This document shows positions 1,895 through 32,662 of a DNA stretch of 64,000 nucleotides, piece by piece. A program made the translations under genes and the position numbers. The stretch comes from a virus: IMG/VR virus record IMGVR_UViG_3300021364_000008, positions 1 to 64,000 of that record; one strand, written 5' to 3'. Position 1 is the first letter of the stretch. Every line of letters starts with the position of its first letter. The notes beneath the pieces were generated by a model that made no database searches, was not told the origin of the DNA, and worked only from the letters and a program-made list of their open reading frames with translations.

Positions 1895-2093
1895 AGAAGT
1901 AACCTCTGAGCTTGGAGAACCTGATTGTAGATTAACTGAACCATTTTTAGTAGATCAATCAGGTTCAACTTTATCACCTTGGTTGATTGAGTTTACAACT
2001 GAAAATCAATATATGATATCATCAGACAAAATTATAACTCTCTCTGATCCAAAACCAACCTTACTTGAAAAATATCAGGATTTGATTAAATGA
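1836..2093 (+). CDS. Small conserved protein, gp43-adjacent
   Basis: This is an 85-residue protein of unknown function. The start at 1836 (MKPIKLILLMNNQ) was chosen because GAGGAG lies ten bases upstream. An in-frame ATG at 1818 is also possible. It overlaps the preceding gene by about 60 bases and overlaps the gp43 start by four (ATGA), so translation is probably coupled through into the polymerase. It shares an alternating hydrophobic N-terminal pattern with its neighbour. Confidence 0.6.
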   Translation: MKPIKLILLMNNQILISQVEEVTSELGEPDCRLTEPFLVDQSGSTLSPWLIEFTTENQYMISSDKIITLSDPKPTLLEKYQDLIK

Positions 2094-3565
2094 AGTTTTA
2101 TACAAACGTGCAAATGATTGGGAACAAGTTCCTAGTTCGTGGTTATGAGAATGGTGAGCACGTTATGTTCAAAGATGAATATAATCCAACACTTTATGTT
2201 AAAAGTAATAAGGAAACTAAATATAAAACATTAGATGGTGAGTATGTTGAGGCAATTCAACCGGGAACTGTGAAAGATTGTCGTGAATTTTATAAAAAGT
2301 ATGAAGGAGTTCAGAACTTTAAAATTTACGGTAATGACAGATATGTTTATCAGTATATTTCTGACAAATATCCTCAAGATGAAATTAAGTTTGATATTAA
2401 TAAAATCAAGCTTGTAACTCTTGATATTGAAGTGGGATCTGAAAATGGATTTCCTGACCCAAAAGTTTCTGATCAAGAAATTCTTCTTATTACAATTCAG
2501 GACTATTCTACTAAACAGATTATTACTTGGGGGAATGGTCCTTTTAAGAATAAGCAAAGTAATGTTTCTTATAGAGAATTTACAAATGAGTATTCTCTTC
2601 TAAATGATTTTTTATATTATTGGGAACATAATATGCCAGAAGTTGTTACTGGTTGGAATGTTCAGTTCTTTGATATTCCTTTCATTTATGGGAGATTGGA
2701 AAAAGTTCTTGGGGAAAAAAGAGCTAAATCATTTTCTCCTTGGGGATTGGTGAGTAAAGAGGAAGTATTTATCAATAATAGAACAAATTTATTGATGGAT
2801 ATTGGTGGAATTACTCAACTAGATTATCTTGATTTATATAAAAAATTTACTTATAAGGCACAAGAATCTTATCGTCTAGATCACATTGCTAATGTGGAAC
2901 TTGGGGAGAAGAAATTAGATCACTCAGAATTTGATACTTTCAAAGATTTCTACACCAATGGATGGCAAAAGTTTGTAGAATATAACATCATTGACGTGGA
3001 ACTTGTTGATAGATTGGAAGATAAGATGAAACTGATTGAACTTGCTTTAACTATGGCATTTGATGCCAAGGTTAATTTTGGAGATGTATTTTATCAGGTT
3101 CGTATGTGGGATAATATTATTTACAATTATTTGAAAAAGAGAAATATTGTAATTCCCCCAAAAGATAGGTCTGAAAAGAATGAAAAGTATGCTGGAGCTT
3201 ATGTTAAAGAACCAGTTCCTGGTATTTATGAATGGATTTTGTCTTTGGATTTGACATCTCTATATCCTTCCCTCATTATGCAATATAATATTTCTCCAGA
3301 AACTCTCCTTGATGAAAAATATTCAGGAGTATCTGTTGATAAATTATTGAATAAAGAAATTAATATTGAAAATATTGACGGAAAATGTGTATGTTCAAAT
3401 GGTTGTATGTATGATACAACTAAAAGGGGAATATTTTCAGAACTTGTGGAAAAAATTTTTAATGATAGACAGTATTTTAAAAAAGAAATGTTGAAGGAAA
3501 AAAATAGACTGGAGGAAATTGAAAGTGAATTAAAGAAAAGAGGAATTGATTTAAATACTTTATAA
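2090..3565 (+). CDS. 43A: DNA polymerase gp43, N-terminal fragment
   Basis: This is the first piece of the family B replicative polymerase. It carries the 3'-5' exonuclease motifs LDIEVGS (about residue 110), NVQFFDIPF and YNIIDVELVD, and ends shortly after polymerase motif A (DLTSLYPSLI, about residue 385). The frame stops after KKRGIDLNTL, inside the charged helical hairpin at the tip of the fingers domain. Motifs B and C are encoded by a separate frame 690 bp downstream, so neither piece alone can polymerise DNA. The stop is followed at once by a homing-endonuclease gene. Known split family B polymerases assemble non-covalently, and I infer the same here. Confidence 0.93.
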   Translation: MKFYTNVQMIGNKFLVRGYENGEHVMFKDEYNPTLYVKSNKETKYKTLDGEYVEAIQPGTVKDCREFYKKYEGVQNFKIYGNDRYVYQYISDKYPQDEIKFDINKIKLVTLDIEVGSENGFPDPKVSDQEILLITIQDYSTKQIITWGNGPFKNKQSNVSYREFTNEYSLLNDFLYYWEHNMPEVVTGWNVQFFDIPFIYGRLEKVLGEKRAKSFSPWGLVSKEEVFINNRTNLLMDIGGITQLDYLDLYKKFTYKAQESYRLDHIANVELGEKKLDHSEFDTFKDFYTNGWQKFVEYNIIDVELVDRLEDKMKLIELALTMAFDAKVNFGDVFYQVRMWDNIIYNYLKKRNIVIPPKDRSEKNEKYAGAYVKEPVPGIYEWILSLDLTSLYPSLIMQYNISPETLLDEKYSGVSVDKLLNKEINIENIDGKCVCSNGCMYDTTKRGIFSELVEKIFNDRQYFKKEMLKEKNRLEEIESELKKRGIDLNTL

Positions 3566-3588
3566 TATAAATAATAAAGAGTGTTTAA
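3551..3588 (+). promoter_or_regulatory. Late promoter inside hairpin, HNH gene in gp43
   Basis: The octamer TATAAATA (3566-3573) sits in the loop of an imperfect hairpin. Arms are 3551-3561 and 3577-3588, with one G-T pair and one bulged G. The 3' arm ends five bases before the HNH ATG at 3594. Late transcripts starting about seven bases after the octamer would lack the 5' arm. Confidence 0.7.
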
Positions 3589-3593
3589 GTCAA

Positions 3594-4268
3594 ATGAATT
3601 ATTTAAAATCTTATTGTAAGTTAATTAGAACTGCTGAAAAAAGAAATTGGAAAAGGAAAAATATTGATTTTTATATCGAAGAACATCATATTTTTCCAAT
3701 ATCAATCTATGGAAAAAATGACAGAATAGTTGGATTGACACCAAGAGAACATTTTTTGGCACATTGGTTACTTTATAAAATTTGTATGAAAAGATATGGT
3801 CTAAGAAATAATAAAACATTTAGTATGGGTTCTGCTTTTGCTATGATGTGTGTTACTAATGATTTGCAAGAAAGGAATTATACATCTAGGAAGTATGAGA
3901 TAGTTAGAAATTGTTTATCTACTATAAGAACTGGAAAGTCTAGAGACGATATGAAAGGGAAAAAATATTTTGGGGCAAGTGAAGATGTTATAAAAGAAGG
4001 TATAGAAAAGATGAGGAAAAAGAAAACGGGAATGAAGATAGAATATCCAAAAAATAGAAAATCTTCTCCCTGTTCATCAGAAAAAATAAAAAAAATATCA
4101 GAAACTAGAAAAAATACAAGAGTTAAATTTATTTCTATGAGTGAAGAAGAATTTGAATTGTGGATCTCCAAACAAAATTTTTATAGGAAAGATGGTGCGA
4201 GAAATTCAAATGTTACTCGTACATTAATGTGGAGAAATATTCCTTTGGAGAAATACTATGGGACTTGA
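3594..4268 (+). CDS. HNH homing endonuclease interrupting gp43
   Basis: The 224-residue protein has an HNH core: EEHHIFPISIYG (residues 24-35) and REHFLAHWLL (about 48-57). A Lys/Arg-rich C-terminal half contains NUMOD3-like segments (SSEKIKKISETRK). Such enzymes cut an uninterrupted copy of the target gene so that repair copies the endonuclease gene in. The flanking sequence outside the frame is under 30 bp, too little for a self-splicing intron, so this is a free-standing gene that has split the polymerase. Its last bases overlap the gp43 second-fragment start and supply that fragment's GGAG site. Confidence 0.9.
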   Translation: MNYLKSYCKLIRTAEKRNWKRKNIDFYIEEHHIFPISIYGKNDRIVGLTPREHFLAHWLLYKICMKRYGLRNNKTFSMGSAFAMMCVTNDLQERNYTSRKYEIVRNCLSTIRTGKSRDDMKGKKYFGASEDVIKEGIEKMRKKKTGMKIEYPKNRKSSPCSSEKIKKISETRKNTRVKFISMSEEEFELWISKQNFYRKDGARNSNVTRTLMWRNIPLEKYYGT

Positions 4269-5367
4269 TTATTCAAAAATTTCTACAGATGAGTTGAAAA
4301 AGCAACGTCAAAATTGTATTAAAAGTATTTCGAAATATACAAATAATCAAATGGCAAGAAAAATACAACTTAATAGTTTGTATGGGGCAATAGGAAACGC
4401 ATACTTCAGGTATTACAAACTAGCAAACGCAGAAGCAATTACTCTTTCTGGTCAACTCTCAATTCGTTGGATTGAAAATAGAATGAATCAGTTTCTAAAT
4501 AAGATTTTAAAAACTAAGGATGTAGATTATGTCATCGCATCTGACACAGATTCAATTTATCTTAATCTTGGACCTATTGTTAATAAATTTTTTAATAATA
4601 AAGTTGGGAACAAGAACAAGATTGTGGAACTCTTGGATAAGATATGTCAAGAGCAGTTTGAACCGTTCATCGAATCCAGTTATAAAGAACTTGCGTCATA
4701 TGTCAATGCATATGAGCAAAAAATGCAAATGAAGAGAGAAAATATTGCCGATCGTGGAATATGGACTGCTAAAAAAAGATATATCTTGAATGTCTGGGAT
4801 AGTGAAGGTGTTCGATATGAAGAACCTAAACTTAAGATGATGGGAATTGAAGCAGTCAAATCTTCTACTCCAGCACCTTGTCGTAAGATGATTAAAAATG
4901 CTCTTAAGTTGATGATGAGTGGTACTGAGGATGATGTAATTGATTTTATTGAGAAATGTCGCTCTCAATTTAATAAATTTTCGCCAGAAGAAATAGCATT
5001 TCCTAGAACTGTAACTGATGTGGAAAAATGGAAATCATCATCTGGAATCTATAGTAAGGGAACACCCATTCACGTTCGTGGAGCACTTCTTTTCAATCAT
5101 TATATTAAAGAGAAAAAATTAACTAACAAATACTCTTTGATTCAAAATGGCGAAAAGATTAAATTTTGCTACTTAAAAAAACCAAACATTATTCATGAGA
5201 ATGTGATATCTTTTATATCAGATTTTCCGAAGGAATTTGGTATTGACAAGTATATTGATTATGAACTACAATTTGAAAAAGCATTCTTAGAACCACTTAA
5301 ATCAATTCTTGATGCTATTGGATGGAAAACAGAAAAAACAACTAGTCTGGAGGACTTTTTTTCATAA
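4258..5367 (+). CDS. 43B: DNA polymerase gp43, C-terminal fragment
   Basis: This second piece of the polymerase (369 residues) carries motif B KIQLNSLYGAIGN (about residues 35-47), motif C ASDTDSIYLN (about 92-101) and the thumb. It ends SLEDFFS, close to the clamp-binding tail of T4 gp43. The start ATG follows GGAG by seven bases, so it has its own translation start. RGID at the end of fragment A and GLDYSKIST here are remnants of one continuous loop. It overlaps uvsX by one base. The palm aspartates of motif A and motif C are on different polypeptides. Confidence 0.93.
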   Translation: MGLDYSKISTDELKKQRQNCIKSISKYTNNQMARKIQLNSLYGAIGNAYFRYYKLANAEAITLSGQLSIRWIENRMNQFLNKILKTKDVDYVIASDTDSIYLNLGPIVNKFFNNKVGNKNKIVELLDKICQEQFEPFIESSYKELASYVNAYEQKMQMKRENIADRGIWTAKKRYILNVWDSEGVRYEEPKLKMMGIEAVKSSTPAPCRKMIKNALKLMMSGTEDDVIDFIEKCRSQFNKFSPEEIAFPRTVTDVEKWKSSSGIYSKGTPIHVRGALLFNHYIKEKKLTNKYSLIQNGEKIKFCYLKKPNIIHENVISFISDFPKEFGIDKYIDYELQFEKAFLEPLKSILDAIGWKTEKTTSLEDFFS

Positions 5368-6284
5368 TGGATTTTTTAAAGGACATTGTAAAGGAAATTG
5401 GTGACGATTACACACAACTTGCATCTGAAATTGATGAAACTGAAACTTATGTAGACACAGGTTCATATATTTTTAACGCATTAGTTTCTGGTAGTGTATT
5501 TGGTGGTGTATCTGGAAATAAAATTACTGCCATTGCTGGTGAGTCTTCTACTGGCAAAACTTTCTTTTCTCTTGCTGTTGTTAAAAATTTTCTTGATAGT
5601 AACCCAGATGGTTACTGCCTGTATTTTGATACTGAAGCAGCGATCACTAAATCTCTTTTGGAGAGTCGTGGAGTTGATACAACCAGAACTGTTGTTGTCA
5701 ATGTCGTAACAATTGAAGACTTTCGTACCAAAGCATTGAAAGCTGTAGATATCTACTTAAAGAAACCTGTAGAAGAACGCAAACCTTGTATGTTTGTGCT
5801 AGACTCTTTGGGTATGCTCTCAACTGAGAAAGAAATCAAAGATGCTCTAGATGATAAGCAAGTTCGTGATATGACCAAATCACAACTTGTAAAGGGTGCA
5901 TTCCGAATGCTAACTCTCAAGTTGGGTCAAGCAAAAATTCCAATGATTGTGACTAATCACGTATATTCCGTAATTGGACAATATGTTCCTATGCAGGAAA
6001 TGGGTGGGGGTTGTTTAGTTGCGGGAACTAAGATACAAACAGAAAATGGTTCTATTCCTATTGAATCTATTCAAGTTGGTGACAAAGTGAGAACTATGTT
6101 TGGTTATTCATCAGTTACTCACACTTTCCATTTCACCGACAAAGATGTTTATGAATTGGAATTGGAGGATGGAGAAACTATTAGATGTTCTGGTGAACAT
6201 AAATTTTTAGTAGATACTGGAGATGGTTATGAATGGAAATCTGTTACTGAGTTATTACCTTCAGATACTATCAAATCTATGTGA
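5367..6284 (+). CDS. uvsX-N: UvsX recombinase N-fragment fused to N-intein
   Basis: Residues 1-215 are the RecA-like UvsX ATPase with Walker A GESSTGKTF and Walker B MFVLDSLG. Cys216 starts a 90-residue N-intein with block A (CLVAGTKIQTENG), block B (ETIRCSGEHKFLV) and VGDKV between them. The frame stops after SDTIKSM, so the intein C-terminal blocks are not in this protein. The insertion point is after MQEMGGG, in the conserved glycine-rich DNA-binding loop region. UvsX does strand exchange in T4-type recombination-dependent replication. Function requires trans-splicing with the product starting at 6961. Confidence 0.93.
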   Translation: MDFLKDIVKEIGDDYTQLASEIDETETYVDTGSYIFNALVSGSVFGGVSGNKITAIAGESSTGKTFFSLAVVKNFLDSNPDGYCLYFDTEAAITKSLLESRGVDTTRTVVVNVVTIEDFRTKALKAVDIYLKKPVEERKPCMFVLDSLGMLSTEKEIKDALDDKQVRDMTKSQLVKGAFRMLTLKLGQAKIPMIVTNHVYSVIGQYVPMQEMGGGCLVAGTKIQTENGSIPIESIQVGDKVRTMFGYSSVTHTFHFTDKDVYELELEDGETIRCSGEHKFLVDTGDGYEWKSVTELLPSDTIKSM

Positions 6285-6289
6285 AAGTT

Positions 6290-6326
6290 GGTTCTGGACT
6301 AAATAATAATAGTTTAGTCCAGAACC
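6290..6326 (+). promoter_or_regulatory. Perfect 14-bp hairpin with late promoter, HNH gene in uvsX
   Basis: Arms 6290-6303 and 6313-6326 are perfect complements around a 9-base loop. ACTAAATA (6298-6305), a late-promoter-like octamer, spans the end of the 5' arm and the loop. The 3' arm abuts the TTG start codon of the HNH gene. A short T-run follows, so the element could also act as a weak terminator for read-through transcripts. Confidence 0.75.
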
Positions 6327-7001
6327 TTGTTTTTATCAAATAAGTATACTGATTGTTATTTCCGTATTATTAATAAGGCAAATCTTAGGAAACTTCCTCA
6401 AATTACTGAATGTCATCATATTATACCTAAATCATTAGGTGGAGGGGAAGAAGCAGAAAACAAAGTATATTTAACACCAAGAGAACATTTTGTCTGTCAC
6501 CATCTTCTTCTGAAAATGTTGGAGGGAAAATTAAAGCAGAAAATGTGTTATGCCTTTTATAATATGAAACGTAGTAATGGTAATGGTGTTAGATGTAAAA
6601 ATGTCAATTCTTATGATAGAATAAGATCACACTACTCACATCTTACTTCGGGTGAAAACAATCCATTTTATGGTAAGGGACATTATGGATTTTCTAACCC
6701 GATGTCAAACCCTGAAGTTCGGGAGAAACATAAACAAATCGTTTCTTCACCTGAACATAGAAAGAAGATGAGTGATAAAATGTCTGGTGAAAATAATCCA
6801 TTTTACGGAAGAACTCATTCAGATGAAACCAAGAAACATCTTTCTGAGTTGGCGTCTCAGAGAATAGGTAAAAACTCTCCCCGTTATGGGAAGAAACACA
6901 AACAAGTTGTTTGTGAACACTGCCAAAAACAAATCACTTACCCAATGTATAAGAGGTGGCATGGAACGAACTGTAAAATCTATAAAGAAAATAAAAACTG
7001 A
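6327..7001 (+). CDS. HNH homing endonuclease inside the uvsX split intein
   Basis: The 224-residue protein has the HNH core [13 protein letters not shown] (about residues 28-40) and [11 protein letters not shown] (about 52-62), then repeated NUMOD3-like DNA-binding motifs (SGENNPFYG twice, [11 protein letters not shown]). The start is TTG: the protein then begins MFLSNKYTD, the form I know from related phage HNH proteins, and no ATG is available. No clear Shine-Dalgarno sequence precedes it. It is a separate gene, not fused to either intein half, and its 3' end overlaps the uvsX C-fragment by 41 bases in another frame. Confidence 0.88.
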
Positions 7002-7431
7002 AGATGTTTATGACATCACTGTTGAGGGAGAACATCATTATATTCTTGATAATGGTGTTGTGTCTCATAACTCTGGTCTTAAATATGCTGCTTCTACAAT
7101 CATTTATCTTTCTAAAAAGAAGGAGAAAGATGGAACAGAAGTCATTGGAAATATTATTAAAGCAAAGACTGCAAAATCACGCTTGAGTAAAGAAAATAAG
7201 GAAGTAGAGATTCGCTTGTATTATGATGAGAGGGGGCTAGACCGATACTATGGTCTCTTGGAGCTTGGAGAAATCGGTGGACTTTGGAAAAATGTAGCAG
7301 GACGCTATGAAATTGATGGTAAGAAAATTTATGGGAAACAAATTCTTGCAGAACCTGAAAAATATTTTACGCCCGAATTAATGGAGAAACTTGATGAAAT
7401 TGCGAGACACGAATTTAGTTACGGTAAGTAA
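6961..7431 (+). CDS. uvsX-C: C-intein fused to UvsX C-fragment
   Basis: Residues 1-37 are a C-intein with block F ([16 protein letters not shown]) and block G (DNGVVSHN). The +1 extein residue is Ser38. From there [13 protein letters not shown] continues UvsX exactly where the N-fragment stops. The ATG at 6961 was chosen because GAGG lies just upstream and the C-intein then has a normal length. Splicing would join MGGG to SGLKYAAS, recreating the RecA L2-like segment. The gene overlaps the HNH gene at its 5' end and the oxygenase gene at its 3' end. Confidence 0.92.
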
Positions 7432-29721: not shown

Positions 29722-29815
29722 TATACTAAACACATTGGCAGCAAGGGTCCAAACCTTGTGTAAGTCCTACCCCTCCCAAGCCTATCAACGATGCTCAAAC
29801 AGGGAGGACTCTTAT
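29722..29815 (+). other. Non-coding stretch before tRNA cluster
   Basis: There is no plausible gene. CCTCCC and GGGAGG form a possible long-range stem (about 29770-29808), which may be a processing signal for the tRNA transcript. Confidence 0.35.
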
Positions 29816-32547: not shown

Positions 32548-32662
32548 TTTTATTATGAGTTTACGTTATCTCTAAAATGCCGTTGGTGCGGATGTGGAGT
32601 TTACTCCCGCCTGGTTTCCAATTTCCATTCAAAGAATTGGTGGCGAGCCTTAAGACCTTCAG
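32548..32662 (+). other. Non-coding stretch before the glycan cassette
   Basis: There is no gene. The segment 32575-32662 is less AT-rich and has several short complementary pieces (GGTG, GCGG, CCGCC, GGCGAGCC). It could be a small RNA or tRNA relic, but I cannot fold it into a known class. Confidence 0.3.

Follow-up and report, generated by a model that had tools for sequence, protein, structure and literature searches.

The replicative family B DNA polymerase (PolB, gp43) encoded by the virus record IMGVR_UViG_3300021364_000008 very probably works as two chains, and its gene is best explained as having been split by a mobile fingers cassette, i.e. a segment comprising both halves of the fingers subdomain and an HNH endonuclease gene whose product would drive the transfer. 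All coordinates below are positions in the window, the whole stretch of 64,000 nt that was analysed, which forms part of a 99-kb virus record with T4-like cyanophages as its closest kin. The anatomy of the locus, its recurrence, the constraint on its parts, a mosaicism indicating repeated transfer and the persistence of the split after endonuclease loss can all be read from the DNA, as detailed below.

Both halves of the enzyme match one profile of single gp43 proteins, phrog_262, residues 1-481 of fragment A covering its positions 7-497 (E 1.6e-188) and residues 15-368 of fragment B its positions 495-851 (E 4.2e-160), so that the halves are collinear and nearly complete. The exonuclease motif and all three polymerase motifs are present (Table 1), which bears out the proposal of an earlier note on this DNA that a replicative polymerase is encoded in two polypeptides, motif A on the first and motifs B and C on the second. 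In phmmer comparison with PDB chains, the match of fragment A stops at residue 502 of RB69 gp43, and that of fragment B restarts at residue 535 (chain 9e5y) or 555 (RB69). Given what we take to be the limits of the two fingers helices in RB69 gp43, this gap falls between them, so the break maps by alignment to the loop at the fingers tip, where the note had placed it. Compared with intact alleles, in which the loop tends to be far shorter, A and B have additional terminal residues. The intervening gene leaves only the short spacer outside its frame, again in agreement with the note; its end overlaps the start of fragment B by 11 bp, and the latter begins with its own ATG, 7 nt downstream of GGAG. 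The assignment of the gap gene to the HNH homing type held as well: the protein matches phrog_655 (9.8e-29) and phrog_12434 (5.4e-21) and has about 33% identity to MobE of T4, with no match to the Pfam HNH models.

Table 1. Features of the split gp43 locus and of the adjacent uvsX, in window coordinates
Feature	Position	Strand	Support
gp43 fragment A (491 aa), with N-terminal domain, 3'-5' exonuclease, palm as far as motif A and first of the two fingers helices	2090..3565	+	phrog_262 7-497, PF03104, PF00136; RB69 gp43 to residue 502
Exonuclease motif DIE, A112-114	2423..2431	+	no variation in these columns across 15 aligned relatives
Polymerase motif A DLTSLYPS, A387-394; apparent left crossover of the cassette at its start or just upstream	3248..3271	+	
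Mobile fingers cassette, borders approximate: 3' end of A, spacer, HNH gene and 5' end of B	3205..4416	+	quartet-site switch; L211 vs L183
AT-rich spacer, 28 bp, from A stop to HNH start; conserved among HNH-split relatives	3566..3593	+	
HNH homing endonuclease gene, 224 aa, MobE-like	3594..4268	+	phrog_655/phrog_12434; pN/pS 0.22
GGAG, Shine-Dalgarno-like, for fragment B, within HNH 3' end	4247..4250	+	sequence
gp43 fragment B (369 aa), with second of the two fingers helices, motifs B and C and thumb	4258..5367	+	phrog_1918, phrog_262 495-851
Polymerase motif B NSLYG, B39-43; apparent right crossover of the cassette just downstream	4372..4386	+	
Polymerase motif C DTDS, B96-99	4543..4554	+	
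uvsX N-terminal part and intein N-half	5367-6284		Pfam intein pieces
Second phrog_655 HNH gene, in uvsX	6327-7001		
Intein C-half and rest of uvsX	within ORF 6886-7431		Pfam intein pieces

About 18 further viral contigs show the order A-HNH-B, some of them almost identical although they come from different metagenomes (L083/L084 and L006/L087, 99.9% each); this order is thus not a sequencing accident. Mean pN/pS values are 0.30 for A, 0.22 for the HNH gene and 0.23 for B, calculated without the truncated HNH gene of L088; for L001 and L083, fragment A was taken to begin at an in-frame codon a few codons away from its true start. Constraint extends to the new termini (0.25 over the last 25 codons of A, 0.24 over the first 25 of B), and both fragments, judged by these ratios, appear to be under purifying selection. 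The exonuclease and all polymerase motifs are retained in the 15 HNH-split alleles. This is hard to reconcile with split gp43 being a non-functional remnant in a phage replicated by another polymerase. The record is an incomplete genome, which leaves room for a second enzyme, and the gene carries further breaks in two relatives (L002 and L091), but no other PolB was found with PF00136 in its 99 kb, and cultured isolates of ACG-2014f have the same kind of split; we regard a remnant as highly improbable.

The existence of two frames flanking an endonuclease gene would also be expected if A and B were exons of a self-splicing intron with the HNH gene inside, splicing restoring a single chain. HNH genes are commonly found inside introns, and phage 25 does have one of group I in its gp43, but the 28 bp available outside the HNH frame are scant, and the interval 3300-4600 gives no Rfam match even at E=10, while the control, the intron in 43B of phage 25, scores 64 bits. 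No Rfam introns are found in the related split loci. Furthermore, the stop of A and the start of B persist in L211 despite the loss of most of the HNH region, split relatives exist with no insert and with stop and start overlapping as TAATG, the fragments' own termini are conserved, and B has its own ribosome site. The intron was rejected on the grounds of space, the Rfam search with its positive control and the insert-free split relatives, and we give it scarcely any credence; the lack of any sign of splicing accords with what the earlier note expected.

Joining of the chains after translation deserves attention on account of the neighbouring gene, since uvsX (5367-7431) is broken as well, by a related HNH gene and with split-intein halves present. 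The same fractured arrangement was seen in the majority of ten related loci. Fractured genes with split inteins and a free-standing endonuclease gene between the halves were reportedly described by Dassa et al. in 2009 (cited in PMC6892783); uvsX of the window fits this type, and gp43 resembles it in the endonuclease between its halves but is missing the intein halves. Phage MIJ3 is likewise described as having an HNH gene together with a split intein in its PolB (PMC6892783), which together with uvsX would favour protein trans-splicing of A and B. Against this, the Pfam scan that detects the uvsX intein finds A and B intein-free, and both consist of gp43 sequence essentially to their ends. 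The intein was therefore rejected, and the chance that A and B are joined in this way seems negligible. With intein halves in uvsX and none in gp43, two neighbouring replication genes have each been broken up by one of a pair of related HNH genes, and the solution differs between them. Split inteins in uvsX are not described in the literature searched, most subscription journals being outside its scope.

Separate translation being preferred, the origin of the break is best seen from comparison with intact relatives. HNH-split alleles share 88-99% DNA identity with various intact alleles outside approximately 3205-4416 and roughly 53-80% inside. Five split/intact pairs, about 53-80% identical in the cassette region, have outer identities (N-/C-terminal side) of 95/98% (L001/L048), 95/95% (L037/L194), 96/89% (L088/L158), 88/89% (L006/L172) and 99/99% (L211/L183). 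L001 and L048 are 90-98% identical across nt 1-1080 of A and 97-99% in B past nt ~200, with a drop to 53-72% from nt ~1200 of A to the start of B. The sharpest case is L211 against L183, with 8 mismatches over the first 1100 nt of A, 15 in 954 nt of B and divergence confined to the equivalent of 3224-4416. Quartets composed of two split alleles and the intact kin of each give the same borders. For L001/L048 versus L037/L194, own-kin sites number 148, 132 and 29 against 0, 2 and 1 to the left of the cassette, and 53 and 96 against 0 and 1 to the right; from ~3240 to 4395 split pairs with split, the switch points lying at about 3190-3250 and 4395-4416. As a concatenated tree of the whole polymerase blended the two signals, separate outer and inner trees were used instead. 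In the outer DNA tree split alleles are dispersed among intact kin (6 label changes, all forced by starred branches), and in the inner, cassette tree all seven of seven form one clade (100/100).

The motifs at the borders differ accordingly. Motif A reads DLTSLYPSL in 15/15 HNH-split alleles and DLNSLYPHL in 150/152 intact ones, and motif B reads NSLYG and NSAYG in the same proportions. Since the crossovers adjoin motifs A and B, the fingers and the internal endonuclease gene move as a unit. From these alignments the cassette appears to have moved repeatedly into intact gp43 genes, making them split. One may speculate that the fixed motif A/B differences mark candidate sites at which an intact allele is cut and the cassette protected. 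The comparison with intact relatives that the earlier note had recommended for mapping an insertion site was thus carried out, yet it delimited a swapped region (~3205-4416) instead of a point insertion, and the description of a gene locally broken by an HNH gene has to give way to a mobile cassette of both fingers halves with that gene between them. In L091 (positions 1-2544, with several frameshifts) a piece of the cassette (A from residue 366, a frameshifted HNH gene and the first 27 residues of B) stands immediately before a polymerase segment of intact type that is itself frameshifted; this is probably an assembly error or, alternatively, a tandem recombination product.

The same mosaics might be produced by ordinary homologous recombination in co-infected cells without any cleavage, the HNH gene being a passive or dead passenger. 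In favour of this, the DNA in which the crossovers occur, adjoining motifs A and B, is conserved, and L088 and L211 carry a broken and a largely deleted endonuclease gene, respectively. In the former it has an early stop; in the latter only codons 196-224, containing the ribosome site of B, are left after what was apparently a deletion between short TTTATA repeats. In both, A and B stay open, so that the split is kept without a working endonuclease gene. However, most copies of the HNH gene are intact and evolve under purifying selection, and the same fingers type is split by an unrelated DUF559-type (REase-like) nuclease gene in L219, L228 and L229, suggesting that the site has been repeatedly used by homing nucleases. 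Transfer without cleavage is consequently considered unlikely, albeit the most serious of the competing readings; HNH cleavage as the driving force of cassette transfer is plausible.

Relatives with this fingers type display further states: intact gp43 with cassette-like fingers (L224 and L225), a decayed, truncated DUF559-type nuclease (L226 and L227), and a split with the nuclease absent (L231). A second split family, of MGYLIGG type, is broken at the same loop and has the ordinary cyanophage motifs DLNSLYPH and NSAYG; its mosaic signal is weaker. Seven of its members (L005, L018, L020, L032, L141, L163 and L171) have the TAATG stop-start overlap with no insert, and L014 and L015 have another nuclease-like ORF between the halves, to which no Pfam family was assigned. 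Cultured Synechococcus phages ACG-2014f, complete isolates, encode gp43 in two CDS divided at the same loop as in the window, but with two small ORFs or nothing between the halves, as in the MGYLIGG type, in place of the HNH gene; unlike in the window, their B has an MGYLIGG-type leader, apparently an ATT start, and the motifs DLNSLYPH/NSAYG. A local break by the HNH gene, as worded in the earlier note, finds no support here either, the same loop also being split without this gene in L005, L018, L231 and ACG-2014f. In MGYLIGG-type loci with an insert between the halves (L101 and L102, near locus 3501; L014 and L015) ATT replaces ATG at the start of B; in L101 no ATG, GTG or TTG precedes motif B. 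The annotated starts of B in ACG-2014f would lose fingers or motif B residues. In other relatives (L008, L012, L013, L019, L052, L056 and L069) gp43 is enlarged past motif A by additional inserts, roughly 200-700 bp long, which may be inteins or variable loops.

The basic split arrangement is already known, and what is added here is the split as a mobile cassette. A PolB of two polypeptides occurs in the archaeon Methanothermobacter (PMC7776575), the type of precedent invoked in the earlier note, but the correct precedent comes from Aeromonas phages 44RR and 25, where gp43A and gp43B (Petrov, Ratnayaka and Karam 2010, as described in PMC2988022) make up a T4-type PolB divided at the fingers-tip loop that is broken in the window too; the position of the break was read from both sequence records by alignment. 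In 44RR A ends with ...ASRGVKLDH* and B starts with MELELF..., against ...KKRGIDLNTL* and MGLDYSK... in the window. In phage 25 a homing endonuclease gene likewise occupies the gap between 43A and 43B, but it is of the GIY-YIG (Seg-type) family and not HNH; 43B of that phage also has a group I intron, which is not seen in gp43 of the window. Endonuclease insertion in Aeromonas phage gp43 has been discussed (PMC2988022). By inspection, the 44RR and 25 spacers bear a hairpin element (GGGGCTAT..ATAGCCCC / GGGGTTAT..ATAACCCC), and a similar inverted repeat is absent from the 28-bp spacer of the window. Phage Aeh1 likewise has a MobE-like HNH gene in an essential gene, though a different one, nrdA, with the split NrdA reported functional (PMC2988022); what distinguishes the window is that flanking coding sequence travels with the endonuclease gene. 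Transfer of fingers as a unit is not described in the literature searched, which excluded most subscription journals and so does not prove novelty.

In the proposed scheme A and B would be translated separately and fold non-covalently into one PolB, chain A supplying motif A and chain B motifs B and C, with the two joined along the fingers helices. Assembly into an active heterodimer has a strong precedent, as 43A and 43B of phage 25 co-purify with polymerase activity (PMC2988022), and we infer it here by analogy; AlphaFold models of the single fragments, built from alignments of relatives, reached pLDDT of 49 and 58, too low for the interface. The break itself would be due to the ~1.2-kb cassette, made up of the end of A from about motif A, the spacer, the MobE-like HNH gene and the start of B past motif B. 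During co-infection with a phage having intact gp43, the endonuclease would cut or nick the intact gene, and repair from the cassette allele would copy the cassette into it, with crossovers adjoining motifs A and B, in stretches of similarity between donor and recipient. The recipient would lose its own fingers and gain matched halves that already work when split.

More generally, homing-endonuclease genes can probably spread with a ready-made split-enzyme adapter, namely a cassette of both matched subdomain halves. If so, a single recombination event exchanges the recipient's subdomain for the adapter, and an essential enzyme that was intact becomes a lasting two-subunit one, with neither intron nor intein. 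This would offer a concrete route from an essential enzyme to a two-subunit enzyme, in which the split travels as a subdomain swap bordered by catalytic motifs. By means of natural allele pairs with as much as 99% identity beyond the cassette (L211/L183), one can test directly how splitting affects speed, fidelity and assembly, and the cassette may serve as a natural design for split DNA polymerases.

Elsewhere in the window, a wcaG RNA (RF01761) lies at 32555-32654 (79.7 bits), and a match to the abiF RNA model (RF03085; 49.4 bits) at 29772-29808 stands directly ahead of a cluster of six tRNA genes.
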